A stretch of 40,999 bases of DNA from Mycoplasmatota bacterium (GCA_024650045.1 JANKMU010000015.1:1-40999); one strand, 5' to 3'. Numbered from the stretch's first letter, positions 33,158 to 40,999 are shown. Notes: a model not told the origin generated them from the sequence alone. Program-made: numbers and translations.

Positions 33158-33706
33158 TTAGAACCAATGATTGAAAAATGAGTCTGTGAAGTCTTTCATA
33201 AAGTCTTGAATATCCTTGAAGAATTTTTCTTGAAGGCTAAATAACGAGTCTCTTGAAACGAGTTCATTTTTTTCTTTATTTTCTTCTGGTTTACCCTCAA
33301 TCATTTTATCGGTCTCATACTTCTTGGCTCTTGCATGTTTTGATGATGATTTTGATTCACTTGTAATTTCACCATTTAATAAGATATAATGTGCTTTTTC
33401 TTGTTCAACAAGTGTAAGACTCTTATCATCTTTTTCATTTGCACTCACATATTGATATGCAAGTTTTGTCTCAGAAAATCTTTTGGACAATTCAGTTATT
33501 ACATCAAGTACAGGCTTTTCAGTCTTGAAGTCAATACGATCATATCCAACAAAGACATCTTCAACTTTTTCCTTAAAGTTAGAGGTAACCTTAGTCAAAT
33601 CAAATGAACTCTTCTTTTCACCTTTTGAATTCTCCAGAAATGCCATCATTTCTTTGACTTCTTCAATGGTTCCAAGGATTCTTAGTCTATTTGAGACTTT
33701 CAACAT
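33158..33706 (-). CDS. Hypothetical protein with possible YubB-like N-terminus
   Basis: About 182 residues. The first 90 (KVSNRLRILGTIEEVKEMMA, FDLTKV, then AYQYVSAN) resemble the ferredoxin-like YubB/DUF1281 domain. The rest is charged and low-complexity (Lys/Glu/Ser-rich, about 115-150) with a final amphipathic helix FFKDIQDFMKDFTDSFFNHW. No function assigned. ATG at 33706 fits an AAGGGGTGAT site; GTG 33715 and ATG 33712 lie inside that site. Confidence 0.55.
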   Translation of the reverse strand: MLKVSNRLRILGTIEEVKEMMAFLENSKGEKKSSFDLTKVTSNFKEKVEDVFVGYDRIDFKTEKPVLDVITELSKRFSETKLAYQYVSANEKDDKSLTLVEQEKAHYILLNGEITSESKSSSKHARAKKYETDKMIEGKPEENKEKNELVSRDSLFSLQEKFFKDIQDFMKDFTDSFFNHWF

Positions 33707-33803
33707 AAACATCACCCCTTCTAACTATATTATATTACTGGCACTCTAACATGTCAAGTGCTGATTATGTTTTTTATAACTTTTTTATATCTTTGATATA
33801 AAT

Positions 33804-34630: not shown

Positions 34631-35959
34631 TTAGTTATTCGCTAGTGAGCCCATTGGATCCCACGGTTTCAATACTTTAGGTTCTTCTTCCCAAGCTTTT
34701 CTTTGTTCATCTGTTAAATATTTTTCATGAATAACAGCTTGATAGACATAACGATCAAACCAACTATCCGTTGCTAAATAATACCCTTTACTACCGTTAG
34801 TATCTCCCCAACTGTTTTCAATTTTCCAACGATTTGGTTTATCGTTATCGATATTAACTGCAGTAATCAGCATAGCATGATTCATCGCGCCTTGGCTGCA
34901 GTCAAGTTCATCTTCTTTTGTCATAAATAAACTCGTTTCAAGCATTTGATCATAATCAAACGATTGATCATCCCATACGCCTTCCTTACGGTCACCATAT
35001 CTAGCAACGTCAGAACCAAACCATACAACTTCATTATCTTTAAGTTGTTTTAACACCAAATCTTTTAAATCTTTCATTTCTAAGTTTAAGTATTTAATTT
35101 CTCTACCACCAATAACATTGCCTAAGTAAGCAACAGTATATGTTTTTAGGAATGGTTTATCTTTAGTAGGTGCATGAATAATTGATACGTAATCTTTTAA
35201 TATATCACCAATCTTAGTTTGATAAAATGCTTGTGGAGTTAAACTCTTTTCAATATGATATTGATCATTTGAGACATATTCAAAATCAAACGTTTTCGGT
35301 GGAACACCAAAGTTTGTTGTTAAAAATGTATAAAGTTCATCTAATGCCTTTTCTTTAAGTGCTTTAATTTCATTTTGTTTATTTGCAGCAGCAAGTCTTC
35401 TTGCATTTGCTGCATATTGTCTTAATTTAACATTAATGATTTGATTCATAAAACGTGTGCCACTACTTGATGCAGTTTCTGTCATGGCTTCTTTTGGTAC
35501 AACACCATATTTTTCGATTAAGCTGACGAACATATCCCATTGACCACCATCTTGAATTCCGGTTTTTAAAATATGTTGTAGTGTTCTATCATCTTGATCA
35601 ACATCCAAAAAGTCATCCATAATTTCAATAAAATAATTAATTTTTTCTAATTTGTCATAAAAAGCTGTGTAGTTTTGAGATAACTCAAACTCTTTTAAAT
35701 CATGCTTTTTAGCAACGATTTCTCTTAAAACATTCAGTCCTGCAAAGATCCAGCATCTGCCACTTGCTTTTTGATTGGTTACTGGTAATGTTTTAATCTC
35801 GTGTGAAAAGCGGAATTGAGTTGAAGCTTTTTGTTCTTGCTTGTCAAAAAGATTGGCTAATTCATTTTTCACTAATACTCTTCTTAATGCATTTTGAACC
35901 GGTTTTTTATCAAAACTTGTTTGTAGCTGGTTCAAATCTTTCTCAGTTATTTTTTTCAT
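34631..35959 (-). CDS. pepC: Aminopeptidase C (bleomycin hydrolase family, C1B)
   Basis: 442 residues, normal family length. A cytoplasmic papain-fold aminopeptidase that forms a hexameric barrel and trims peptides. The triad is Cys69 in KASGRCWIF, His361 in GAMNHAMLITAV and Asn382 in KIENSWGD. The C-terminal arm that reaches the active site is present (ends MGSLANN). ATG at 35959 with a GGGAGAAG site. It lies 52 nt after the jetC-like gene with only a hairpin between, so partial read-through is possible. Confidence 0.95.
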   Translation of the reverse strand: MKKITEKDLNQLQTSFDKKPVQNALRRVLVKNELANLFDKQEQKASTQFRFSHEIKTLPVTNQKASGRCWIFAGLNVLREIVAKKHDLKEFELSQNYTAFYDKLEKINYFIEIMDDFLDVDQDDRTLQHILKTGIQDGGQWDMFVSLIEKYGVVPKEAMTETASSSGTRFMNQIINVKLRQYAANARRLAAANKQNEIKALKEKALDELYTFLTTNFGVPPKTFDFEYVSNDQYHIEKSLTPQAFYQTKIGDILKDYVSIIHAPTKDKPFLKTYTVAYLGNVIGGREIKYLNLEMKDLKDLVLKQLKDNEVVWFGSDVARYGDRKEGVWDDQSFDYDQMLETSLFMTKEDELDCSQGAMNHAMLITAVNIDNDKPNRWKIENSWGDTNGSKGYYLATDSWFDRYVYQAVIHEKYLTDEQRKAWEEEPKVLKPWDPMGSLANN

Positions 35960-36011: not shown

Positions 36012-39000
36012 TTATAATCTTATAACTCTTTCATCTTTAAATGTTTCAACAATAGCTTGATCATTTTCTTTAACGATGACTAAGCTTGTATTCACGTAAT
36101 TAATAATATTAGAAACACGTTGTGGTGGAACAGCAATTAATAATTGAATACTTAAGCTATTATAAAATTTCATCATCGCATCAATACGACTTTCATCCAT
36201 ATTGTTAAATGCTTCATCGAATAAGACGATACATCCTGAATCGATACGACGATTTTTTGTTAACAATTGTTGGAATGATGCAGCAATAACGATATAGAAT
36301 GGCACTTGAGTTTCCCCACCACTCTTTTCTCTTGATACTTTAGAGAAGTATGATTTATTCCCGTTTTGATTTGTTACTTCAATATCGTAAGACATATAGT
36401 TTCTATAATCTAAGAACTTATAGGTCAATAAATCATATTCTGGATCATTGCTTGCAATCTTTTCAAATAGTTCCATTAAGATGGTTTCATTCTTCTTCGT
36501 TAATCCTTCAGTAAACAATGTGTGTTTACTAATCGCTTCATTGCCCATAATAATGCTATAGTATTGCTTATAATCAGGATTATCACTTGCTTTATAGATT
36601 AACTGATAACTATCAGATCCAAAAGTCTTATCGGTTAATGCAAAGTTAAGTTCAGCAATTTGTTGTTGAGCATTTTCAATGCTTGCTCTAAGTTTGCCAA
36701 CAAACTCTTCTTTAAATCCAATTTCTGAACTTTTTCTAAGTTCGGTTGCTTCTTGTTCATATCGAACTAAATTATTATTTCTAATTTTTTGTGCTTCTTG
36801 TTCATAATAATAAAGTTCATCTAAAGATGGTGCAGCACCGAAATGATATAAATCGATATATGCTTTCATCAAGTTGACAATATCTGCTTCTGCCTTAATA
36901 ATTTGTGAGTTTAGGGCAACTGATGATGCTGCTAAATATTTTGAAATCGATTCATGGTCTTGTTTATGTTTAATTTTAAGCGCATAAAACTGTGTATTTG
37001 CTAAGCTTAGTTTTTCTGGATGTTTTTGACTTAACTGCTTTTGCTCAACAGTGAACTCATCAAGTTTAGTTTTAATTTCATCAATTAAATCTAATATTCT
37101 TTGACGCTCATCACGATTGGTTGCAATCTCTCCAACTAAACCATCAGCTTCTTGTCTCAGTAGTTTTCTTTGTTCTCTTGCTTTATCGATTTGTGAATCG
37201 AGTTTAGCAAGATTCTTATCATTTCCTAATGCATTGATTTGTTCTTCAATTTGTGTGTATTCTTTTCTCGTTTGTTTAATTAAATCAAGATAACGCATTT
37301 GGCCTTGATGAATGAGTTGATTACTCTTGCTTGATGTTAACAATTTAACAACTTTATCATTTTTATCTGATAATTCATACAATTTGTTCATTTTCGCTTC
37401 TAGAGCGTTTAATTGATGAGATTCCATCTCCATTTGCAGTGTTGTTGCTTGAGCTCCTATAAATGGAATTTCGTAGGCTCTAGGGTTGATTTGTCGTGCA
37501 GTATGGTTACTATATGTCATACATGTTGGTGTAATTGAGCGATGGTAGTTTTTAAGCTCATGTACATTATCAACACAATATGTATTATTAAGGAGCATGT
37601 TAATATAAAACCTTGCATAAGTATGCTCAGAGGATACTTTATCAGCTAAAGTCCCTGGAGTGAGTTGTTCATAAGCAGACAGTTTGGATGTGTTTACTAA
37701 ACCTACACCATAAATCTTTTGTTCTATTTTAATACGATCATAAATATCTAATGCGTCATTAAAATAAACAGGATCAACAATAATATCAAAGCGTTGAGTA
37801 TTCAAATACCCTTCAAGTGCGTTTCTCCATTTTTCATCTGTTACTTCTATAAGTTCACAAAGTGGACGAACACGCACTTCTTTTTGATAATGATTGGATA
37901 ACTCTTCATTTAATGAGCGAATCAAGTTTTCAACATAAAATGGATATGTCTTAACATGTCTTTTAAGTTGAGATATTTTTTGTTGAGAAATTCTAATTGC
38001 TTGTGATAGTTCCGTTTTCTCTTTTTCTAGATTTTCTTTTTCAGTATGGAAAGCTTGTAGATATGCTTGGACTTCTGTGTTTAAATCAGCAAGATGTCTA
38101 GATAACTCAGTTGCTGATAACTGATCTTCATTAGTTTGAAAATACGAAACAAATGTCTTCATTGTCGTATTATTAACATGATTGGTTAATTCCTTAATAG
38201 TTTCAAACTCTTTTTTCAATAATTCTCTAAGTTGTACAACTGTTTCTTTTTGTGTTTCATATTCTTTAGCCTTTTTTTGAAGTGCTTCTTGATATTGTGA
38301 TAATGTTCTAGATAAATCAGAATCATTTTTAGCGCGTTCAAGATTGATGATTGATTGTTCGCTATCTTCAAATTGTTCATCAACTTGAGCTTTAGCTTCT
38401 CTCAAATAATCTAAACGTTTTTCAATTTGAGTCAGTTTATCTTCATTTTCTTTAATAAAAGATTCTCTTTTTTCAACCCAATTGAGTTGATCGATTAACT
38501 CATTGATATCTTTTTGTTCTTTATTTTGAGTAATATCTTCGCCTGTTTGAGCGATTTGATCAAGTCTGTCAAGTTTTTCTTTATCTTTTTTTATTTGTTG
38601 TTCGACTTTCTTAAGTTGAGCAACATTATTTTTTAAGGATTGAATATCGATAGGATCATCATCCAGTAAGAATTCAAAGACGAATGCTTGCAAATCGATG
38701 GGTCTAAATGCTAATGCTTTAGGTAAGATTTTTGCGTATTTAGTGGCATCCATACCGAAAAAGCGTGCTAAAGCATCACGGTATTTCTTTTGTGTATCAA
38801 AGGGTGAAAAATCAATATCTATACTTTTTAAGTATTTCTTCATGCTCTTAAAATCTCTTGGGTATTTTTTCTCAAGAAATAATCCGTCATGAATCGATAC
38901 ATTTTCTAACAAATAAAAACGTTCTTTAAGTTGTGAGGCTTTTGGAAGGTCTAAAACACATCCAACGACACTAAACTTTTTGCTTTGTTCGTCAAAAAAC

Positions 39001-39287
39001 TCTAAGGCAACGTGAGTTATTACATCACCATTACGTAAATATTCTTTATTTTCAGCACCAATGCGTCCACGTACATATCCTTCTAGGGTACGTTTTGCAT
39101 CATCGGTTGCTGCAATATTAAACTTAGATCCACTACGACCACCGACAAATAAATACTGCATAGCATCTAGTAATGTCGATTTACCTGATCCGTTTTCACC
39201 TGAAATAAGTGCATTATCTTTGATATCAATCGTTTGGTTAGAGAATAAGTGCCAATTTACTAGTTTAATCTTCGTCAGTTTCTTCAT
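36012..39287 (-). CDS. jetC: JetC-like SMC/MukB-type ATPase (Wadjet-like)
   Basis: About 1091 residues. Walker A GENGSGKST (30-38) after an SMC-like start (KLVNWHLFSNQTIDIKDNAL). Long heptad coiled coils cover about 220-480 and 630-850, with a hinge-like globular part between them. The ABC signature is SGGE (about 989) and Walker B is CIVLFDEAFNNMD (about 1019-1031). In Wadjet, JetC with JetA and JetB forms a condensin-like motor that extrudes and destroys closed circular plasmid DNA. ATG 39287, with GGGAGG upstream, is preferred to 39320. It overlaps jetB by 23 nt. Confidence 0.88.
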   Translation of the reverse strand: MKKLTKIKLVNWHLFSNQTIDIKDNALISGENGSGKSTLLDAMQYLFVGGRSGSKFNIAATDDAKRTLEGYVRGRIGAENKEYLRNGDVITHVALEFFDEQSKKFSVVGCVLDLPKASQLKERFYLLENVSIHDGLFLEKKYPRDFKSMKKYLKSIDIDFSPFDTQKKYRDALARFFGMDATKYAKILPKALAFRPIDLQAFVFEFLLDDDPIDIQSLKNNVAQLKKVEQQIKKDKEKLDRLDQIAQTGEDITQNKEQKDINELIDQLNWVEKRESFIKENEDKLTQIEKRLDYLREAKAQVDEQFEDSEQSIINLERAKNDSDLSRTLSQYQEALQKKAKEYETQKETVVQLRELLKKEFETIKELTNHVNNTTMKTFVSYFQTNEDQLSATELSRHLADLNTEVQAYLQAFHTEKENLEKEKTELSQAIRISQQKISQLKRHVKTYPFYVENLIRSLNEELSNHYQKEVRVRPLCELIEVTDEKWRNALEGYLNTQRFDIIVDPVYFNDALDIYDRIKIEQKIYGVGLVNTSKLSAYEQLTPGTLADKVSSEHTYARFYINMLLNNTYCVDNVHELKNYHRSITPTCMTYSNHTARQINPRAYEIPFIGAQATTLQMEMESHQLNALEAKMNKLYELSDKNDKVVKLLTSSKSNQLIHQGQMRYLDLIKQTRKEYTQIEEQINALGNDKNLAKLDSQIDKAREQRKLLRQEADGLVGEIATNRDERQRILDLIDEIKTKLDEFTVEQKQLSQKHPEKLSLANTQFYALKIKHKQDHESISKYLAASSVALNSQIIKAEADIVNLMKAYIDLYHFGAAPSLDELYYYEQEAQKIRNNNLVRYEQEATELRKSSEIGFKEEFVGKLRASIENAQQQIAELNFALTDKTFGSDSYQLIYKASDNPDYKQYYSIIMGNEAISKHTLFTEGLTKKNETILMELFEKIASNDPEYDLLTYKFLDYRNYMSYDIEVTNQNGNKSYFSKVSREKSGGETQVPFYIVIAASFQQLLTKNRRIDSGCIVLFDEAFNNMDESRIDAMMKFYNSLSIQLLIAVPPQRVSNIINYVNTSLVIVKENDQAIVETFKDERVIRL

Positions 39288-39903
39288 CGTCGTCACTTCC
39301 TCCCTCAACATATCCTTCAAGCTTTTGAATAATTTCTTTAATGCTATCCATATTGGTCACATAAAGAATGGTTGGATATATTTTTATTCTTGCATCATCA
39401 TGCAAACCACGATCGATATAATCGATAATGTTATAGTTTCTTAAAAATGTTAATGCTGGTTTTAATTTATCTTTTGTTATGCGTTTATGATCTAGATAAC
39501 CTATTCTTGTTAACTCAGAATGGATTTCATGTAAGTATATTTCAACATCTTCATCTAGAGTTATTAAATCCATTTTACGTTGATATAAAATGCGAATAAC
39601 AAGAATTAAAATGCTTTCTGTTTTTCTTAAACGCATATGGTTAAAGTAGTTATCGTTTTCAATATAAACAACTTCATCTTCACGGATGATGTTTAATGTG
39701 AAATCACTTAACGCAAAAAATGATTCAAACGCAGATTTGTATGCGACAATAAAACGATAATCGTTTGTGTCTCCAGGCTTTCTTTTTGTTATAAAATTGA
39801 CTTGAAATAATTTATTGACAATTCTTGAAAAATTAGTTTTTTCGCCTTCTTTAAGCAATCCATATTCATCATTAAATTGTCTTAATGCTGCTGATTTGTT
39901 CAT
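39265..39903 (-). CDS. jetB: JetB-like DUF4194 protein (Wadjet-like)
   Basis: 212 residues. A DUF4194/MukE-like winged-helix subunit: VNKLFQVNFITKRKPGDTND, FLxxxDFxLNI-like middle and RLRKTESILILVIRILYQRK, with an acidic tail (GSDDDEETDED). JetB bridges the kleisin JetA and the ATPase JetC. Its ATG overlaps the jetA stop (ATGA) and its 3' end overlaps jetC, so the three genes form one coupled operon. Confidence 0.85.
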   Translation of the reverse strand: MNKSAALRQFNDEYGLLKEGEKTNFSRIVNKLFQVNFITKRKPGDTNDYRFIVAYKSAFESFFALSDFTLNIIREDEVVYIENDNYFNHMRLRKTESILILVIRILYQRKMDLITLDEDVEIYLHEIHSELTRIGYLDHKRITKDKLKPALTFLRNYNIIDYIDRGLHDDARIKIYPTILYVTNMDSIKEIIQKLEGYVEGGSDDDEETDED

Positions 39904-40999
39904 TTTTGTACCTCTTTAATTCTAAAGTTTTCGAAGGTAACAAAGTTACTTTTACATTCTTTGCCCATCAGTTCTACATCGTAATGCATCCCTACTGATT
40001 TTGAATACAAGAAAATTAAAATGAGTTTAACAAAATCTTCTTGTGTTTCTAAATCAATCGATGCTGCTTCTATTGATGGTTTTCCATCAAGCAAACCTTT
40101 GACATATTCATTAATTTCTTTTTTACCATAAATATTATTTTTCAGTAATGCTTTAATCTTTTCTTGTCGATACTCATCACTAATTGAGCTTTCATCAAAC
40201 AATATTTCTTCTGAAACTGGATCAATGCGCATTCTTCTTTGGTTATAAAGCGATTGCGTATCTAAATTTCTCATTTGAGTAATATTGAATAATGCATTAT
40301 AATCCAAATCTTTTTTATGCAAAATGATTCTAAAGAGTCTGTTAAATATACCTTCCACATCATCTGATTGATTGGTATAAAACAATATTTTTGATGCTGC
40401 TGCACTGATGTATTGTTCGTTTTTTCTATCAATCGCTAAGATTAAATGTTCTAAAGCAACGAAACTATCTGTGATAAATCTTAATCGGTCTTCCACATAA
40501 TGAAATGCTTCATTATACTCTTCTATCCGTTTTGTCTTTTGGACCATTGATGCTAGAGTATCCATGGTTTCTTCATTATTTTGAATATTTGAAATCACTT
40601 CTAGAATTGATCTTTTATATCTAGGTAAGCTATCTGTTGTTTTTAAATTATAATATGCGGAATCAAAGAAGTTTTGTTTATATTCGATTAATAATTTTTC
40701 AAGTAAGATTTGCAGGTCTTGTCTAGATTGTTTTTTCGTAATGTCATAATAATAACGATATATATTCGCTTTTAGTGATTTGAGCTTTCTTAAAATATCA
40801 TTTGTTTTTTGAAAAGCTTGCTCCAAAATCCCAATACCTTCAGATAGATTAAAAGAATTCAAAAGAGAATACACGGTGTATATTTCACCAGTATATTCGC
40901 TTTGACGATTGTCTTTGATTGATTCTAAAATATCTATAATTTGGATTGAGTAGTCAAATAAGTTGAGTGACGTTTTATAATCACCTAATTCTTCTTCAC
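39900..40999 (-). CDS. jetA: JetA-like kleisin subunit (partial, cut by window edge)
   Basis: 365 C-terminal residues are visible. The frame stays open to the window end, so the GTG at 40874 is not the start. Helix-rich sequence with EYTGEIYTVYSLLNSFNLSE near the left, a middle of coiled helices, and SILEVISNIQ and MRNLDTQSLYNQRRMRIDPV blocks as in JetA/DUF5716-type MukF-like kleisins. It would close the JetC ring. TGA stop overlaps jetB. Confidence 0.75.
   Translation of the reverse strand, partial: EEELGDYKTSLNLFDYSIQIIDILESIKDNRQSEYTGEIYTVYSLLNSFNLSEGIGILEQAFQKTNDILRKLKSLKANIYRYYYDITKKQSRQDLQILLEKLLIEYKQNFFDSAYYNLKTTDSLPRYKRSILEVISNIQNNEETMDTLASMVQKTKRIEEYNEAFHYVEDRLRFITDSFVALEHLILAIDRKNEQYISAAASKILFYTNQSDDVEGIFNRLFRIILHKKDLDYNALFNITQMRNLDTQSLYNQRRMRIDPVSEEILFDESSISDEYRQEKIKALLKNNIYGKKEINEYVKGLLDGKPSIEAASIDLETQEDFVKLILIFLYSKSVGMHYDVELMGKECKSNFVTFENFRIKEVQK

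Follow-up and report, generated by a model that had tools for sequence, protein, structure and literature searches.

What does a Wadjet operon do when it has no nuclease? The question is raised by a stretch of 40,999 bp (hereafter the window) from Mycoplasmatota bacterium (GCA_024650045.1; JANKMU010000015.1:1-40999), in which the genes jetA, jetB and jetC are followed by pepC and not by the nuclease gene jetD. The window is an entire contig (C6) of a 1.89 Mb genome in 41 contigs (99.94% complete). Its source is one of the wall-less Acholeplasmataceae (Acholeplasmatales), a family that includes Acholeplasma and Candidatus Phytoplasma, and the window JetC shares 97% identity with its counterpart in Peloplasma aerotolerans. 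The initial annotation had left two options: a jetD gene upstream of jetA, outside the window, or a JetD-less condensin with another role. Sequence comparisons favor the second. We consider it quite likely that the nuclease-free Wadjet core works as a housekeeping condensin, the only one of the structural maintenance of chromosomes (SMC) type found in the lineage.

Because the window is the whole contig, whose end falls within jetA, the sequence to its right is unreadable in this assembly. In the eight members of the genus with contigs reaching past jetA, the upstream gene encodes a DEAD-box helicase, which contradicts the option of an upstream jetD. Genome-wide searches, one of which the initial annotation had proposed, contradict it further. 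The JetD families JetD_C (PF09983) and DUF3322 (PF11795) gave no match in the source genome, even at E<=10. In the 20 genomes of the genus PF09983 had no match above cut-off; G003 and G007 gave matches below it, at 11-13 bits, which were taken as chance. The same family was absent from 87 of the 88 family genomes, several of them closed. The sole JetD of the family occurs in Tenericutes bacterium MO-XQ (G042), which has JetABC twice: the core copy lacks JetD, and in the second, whose JetC is 38% identical to the window JetC, JetD lies directly behind jetC. The JetD search therefore works, and a true Wadjet can be recognized beside the core copy. Where jetD is present in the class, it stands directly behind jetC, with a gap of about -133 to +15 bp. 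A six-frame search with a profile built from 16 JetD members of the class found no remnant at the JetD-less loci tested, and controls scored 1e-120 or better. In the window the slot of jetD is occupied, as initially annotated, by the aminopeptidase C gene pepC (34631..35959, minus strand; PF03051, 529 bits), 53 bp 3' of jetC on the same strand.

The canonical condensin Smc-ScpAB, as judged from domain searches, is gone from the whole lineage. ScpA (PF02616) was found in none of the 88 family genomes, the source genome included, with 9 of 14 controls positive. The SMC hinge domain (PF06470) was above cut-off in 18 of 160 genomes of the order, and every such match with comparable coordinates or frames was JetC itself (families f1 and f2). 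These matches were ruled out as Smc by their positions within JetC. No hinge match was found outside JetC in the source genome, and one match below cut-off, in a 642-aa frame of G090, was left without explanation. In addition, a motif screen covering 1.12 Mb of G024, a closed genome of Acholeplasma (75% of 1,496,992 bp), revealed only JetC and a 547-aa RecN-like protein as SMC/RecN-type ATPases. ScpA and ScpB queries yielded nothing in the same 1.12 Mb, and Bacillus-type parS sites were represented there by two-mismatch matches only. The MukB N-terminal domain (PF04310) scored 15.3 bits in the window JetC, below its cut-off of 23. Since ScpA is absent from the family and the checked hinge matches all fall in JetC, nuclease-free JetABC appears to be the sole SMC-type condensin. 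With Smc-ScpAB gone, chromosome folding and segregation probably depend on this complex alone.

The operon has the distribution of a core gene set. JetC was present in all 20 genomes of the genus, and in 71 of the 88 genomes and 13 of the 15 genera of the family. Gene order was kept across genera: an S41-peptidase-like gene (assigned by inspection only), amidohydrolase, DsbA, DEAD helicase, jetA, jetB, jetC and pepC, with pepC adjoining jetC also in genomes of genera g1, g10, g12 and g15. Purifying selection on jetABC is very strong; the ratio of nonsynonymous to synonymous substitution rates (dN/dS) was 0.020-0.030 for each of the three genes in two pairs of close relatives within the genus. 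Between G006 and G013, JetABC proteins are 95-96% identical, compared with 69-94% for neighboring genes. JetC sequences in a plasmid collection were all distant (<60% identity); known plasmids thus do not carry this operon.

A connection to cell division is seen in f2, a sister family of the same order. In 5/5 f2 loci tested (L223, L225, L226, L230 and L232), jetC is followed by sepF (PF04472, 36-45 bits) with a gap of -22 to +68 bp, suggesting that jetABC and this FtsZ-anchoring gene are probably transcribed together. Several f2 loci have ychF or an S4 pseudouridine synthase gene upstream. The latter was observed directly 5' of jetA in two genomes of f2 and one of f7 (L225:958-1656, L232:315-1010 and L234:9065-9769). 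In Firmicutes, rluB often adjoins scpB; given this pairing, the S4 pseudouridine synthase gene next to jetA implies that JetABC may stand where scpAB stood.

We infer the condensin function by exclusion and association, that is, from the core status of the operon, from the lack of Smc-ScpAB and from the operon with sepF in the sister family. As Wadjet and MukBEF biology suggests, JetABC dimers would be loaded onto the chromosome, where ATP-driven extrusion of DNA loops would compact and individualize sister chromosomes. Without JetD, completion or stalling of a loop would bring no cut, and plasmid restriction by cutting is predicted to be absent. JetABC would thus take on the housekeeping work done by Smc-ScpAB in Bacillus and by MukBEF in E. 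coli. The operon probably originated from a Wadjet defense system of the local clade that lost jetD, with Smc-ScpAB lost afterwards, an order of events that is only proposed.

Several observations weigh against this reading. JetC is missing in 10 phytoplasmas, in 5/5 genomes of genus g14 and in one of g9, and one further gap in the phytoplasma group possibly comes from incomplete assemblies; genomes that have undergone reduction may therefore do without a condensin. The ScpB search covered only part of one genome (G024). In family f4 of the same order, the six genomes contain no ScpA, no SMC hinge and no JetC except one JetD-linked copy. Neither ScpA nor JetC was seen in 113 of 395 genomes of the class, a number that is an upper bound, given that no more than two JetC candidates were scored in each genome. 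Finally, Haloplasmataceae keep ScpA together with JetD-less JetABC, and JetD-less JetABC can therefore exist beside Smc.

Two of these groups deserve a separate description. Five f4 genomes (G147, G148, G150, G154 and G155) are near-complete and lack JetC, ScpA and an SMC hinge protein; they possibly have no known condensin at all, or one missed by these searches. In Haloplasmataceae, ScpA, JetD-less JetABC and a complete JetABCD occur in the same genomes (loci L258/L259, L260/L261 and L262/L263), a possible intermediate state.

Phytoplasmas show a further departure. At Candidatus Phytoplasma loci (L070-L077 and L166-L182) jetB and jetC are kept, with a haloacid dehalogenase (HAD) hydrolase gene (PF08282) upstream, and jetA was missing from them even in a six-frame search. 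Phytoplasma JetC is under weaker constraint (dN/dS 0.16, one pair), some of its frames contain stops, and about a third of phytoplasma genomes have no JetC. Perhaps the last condensin of these organisms is decaying now.

The class sample of 395 genomes, which is rich in metagenome-assembled genomes, provided a wider view. ScpA was detected in 181 genomes and JetC in 115, and both occurred in only 14 (an overlap counted from the two lists): eight of f12 (Haloplasmataceae), five of f17 and one of f22. JetC had an adjacent JetD in 10 of these 14. The other 101 JetC genomes, all without ScpA, belong to f1, f2, f4 (one genome), f7, f11, f21, f23, f24, f26 and f27; among the loci read, only G151 and second copies have JetD. 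A single origin of the JetC that occurs without ScpA and JetD was rejected (148 log-likelihood units lower; approximately unbiased test, p about 5e-101; 28 rows). That about 100 genomes of the class combine JetD-less JetC with no ScpA, and that a single origin is rejected, suggests that Smc-ScpAB was replaced repeatedly in the class. We lean toward the view that several lineages, each without ScpA, came independently to rely on JetD-less JetABC as their only chromosomal condensin: Acholeplasmataceae with phytoplasmas; f2/f23/f24; f11/f21/f26/f27; and f7.

The same function may have had another history, in which JetD-less JetABC came first, as a bacterial condensin of a third kind, and Wadjet arose from it through several acquisitions of JetD. 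This alternative competes only with the origin part of our explanation. The JetC tree forces at least 7 changes of JetD state and, being unrooted, fits JetD losses or gains alike. However, the core JetC of the family forms one clade (99 in the Shimodaira-Hasegawa-like approximate likelihood ratio test, SH-aLRT) that nests in a larger, fully supported group with JetD-bearing copies from related orders, G042 and G151, and JetD of the class systems is one alignable family. An older nuclease-free form is therefore an unlikely, though not a negligible, account of the origin.

Much less probable are explanations that assign JetABC a different function. JetD-less JetABC could silence or compact extrachromosomal DNA without cutting, as Smc5/6 does on viral episomes, and not act on the chromosome. 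Wadjet measures circular DNA, and restriction by Smc5/6 works through entrapment (PMC10586767), which makes such an activity conceivable; yet it would leave the core status, the very strong purifying selection, the loss of Smc-ScpAB and the sepF operon unexplained, and we regard it as very unlikely. Hardly better placed is a new type of defense system in which another nuclease replaces JetD. Our searches covered JetD families only, and a nuclease encoded in trans would escape them, but the gene 3' of jetC varies by genus (pepC; ptsI, for enzyme I of the phosphotransferase system (PTS); a DEAD helicase gene; sepF; an RsmE-type RNA methyltransferase gene; a nucleotidyltransferase gene). Wherever annotated, these genes are housekeeping and none is annotated as a nuclease; no conserved replacement nuclease was found behind jetC among the loci read. 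The weakest alternative, an ordinary plasmid-defense Wadjet with JetD encoded elsewhere or too divergent to be found, draws on the break of the source assembly inside jetA and is largely refuted by the genome-wide absence of JetD families in genus and family, by the empty six-frame search where jetD of the class otherwise stands, and by the core nature of the operon, since defense systems are patchy.

Coordinates and profiles agree with the initial annotation that jetA, jetB and jetC are present and overlapping, and by its profile matches the operon is the SMC motor (JetC), kleisin (JetA) and KITE subunit (JetB) of a type I Wadjet, without JetD. All three genes lie on the minus strand. jetA, for the kleisin-type subunit, runs from 39900 to 40999, where the contig end cuts its 5' end, and has 365 visible codons; homologs, of which full-length ones were aligned, have about 458-475 aa. 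It matched PF18982 with 240 bits (cut-off 26) and PADLOC JetA1 at 1.6e-70, and the JetA profile found no clear homolog by sequence among solved structures. jetB (39265..39903), for the KITE-type subunit of 212 aa, overlaps jetA by 4 bp and matched PF13835 (DUF4194) with 88 bits (cut-off 32.7) and PADLOC JetB1 at 1.1e-65. jetC (36012..39287), for the SMC-type ATPase, encodes 1091 aa from the ATG at 39287 and overlaps jetB by 23 bp. A GGAGG-type ribosome-binding site sits ahead of this ATG within the 3' part of jetB, and the listed open reading frame extends to 39320 because of a TTG upstream.

JetC scored 1097 bits with PADLOC JetC1, and its profile matched the solved JetC chains 8as8/9qxt over their length with 108 bits. 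Its Walker A motif, GENGSGKST (residues 30-38; 39174..39200, minus strand), has G30, G35, K36 and T38 invariant in 13 diverse JetC sequences. In the same 13 sequences the signature motif of the ATP-binding cassette (ABC), SGGETQ (residues 989-994; 36306..36323, minus strand), is invariant, as are D1024 and E1025 of Walker B, CIVLFDEAF (residues 1019-1027; 36207..36233, minus strand; PF13558, 91 bits). The hinge region is placed approximately at 37557..37868 (minus strand) from SMC_hinge matches in JetC of relatives, where PF06470 scored 21-24 bits (G041, G042, G044 and G087). Further along the window, a gene of 185 aa at 33158-33715 (minus strand) had clear homologs in only two compared loci of genus-mates (cluster 22: G003 and G002) and may be lineage-specific.

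That condensins arise through loss of JetD is an idea already published. MksBEF of Pseudomonas probably arose in this way, MukBEF replaced Smc-ScpAB in enterobacteria, and the origin of MukBEF and MksBEF from a plasmid-cutting defense machine by nuclease loss is considered an open question (PMC10586767). A 2011 review of phytoplasmas called the annotated 'smc' of OY-M unclear (PMC3322544). We found no published report of a replacement of Smc-ScpAB in Acholeplasmatales, in a search that left most subscription papers and preprints outside. The route from plasmid-cutting machine to condensin by loss of the nuclease appears to have been followed to its end in one family, probably in the larger part of its order, and separately in other lineages. 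If the replacements were independent, an SMC complex of defense has repeatedly turned into, or shares its origin with, a housekeeping condensin. Acholeplasma laidlawii is a culturable member of this lineage and makes the defense-to-condensin question testable. Chromosome folding in phytoplasmas and acholeplasmas would rely on a machine other than Smc-ScpAB, or on none at all, and profile-based defense finders will report Wadjet parts where a probable housekeeping condensin is encoded.

Compared with known systems, the operon shares the type I JetA, JetB and JetC, the gene order and the overlaps with Wadjet type I (JetABCD/MksBEFG/EptABCD), and differs from it by the lack of JetD, its core instead of patchy occurrence, its housekeeping surroundings and a lineage without Smc-ScpAB. 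In composition it resembles MksBEF-type condensins, a trio of SMC-like protein, kleisin and KITE without a nuclease; unlike this lineage, Pseudomonas aeruginosa keeps Smc as well (PMC7485682). Borrelia burgdorferi has a nuclease-free MksB-type protein with a measured effect on long-range chromosome contacts (PMC10406323), but this MksB occurs without MksE and MksF and in addition to Smc, whereas the trio of the window family is complete except at phytoplasma loci. Smc-ScpAB of Bacillus is predicted to do the same job, although no canonical hinge protein was found here and ScpA is absent from the entire family. MukBEF of enterobacteria offers a parallel, since there too an entire lineage exchanged Smc-ScpAB for a condensin other than Smc (PMC10586767). 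MukB, however, is the longer protein (NCBIfam model of 1486 positions, compared with 1091 aa for JetC), and the window JetC scores below the cut-off of the MukB family.

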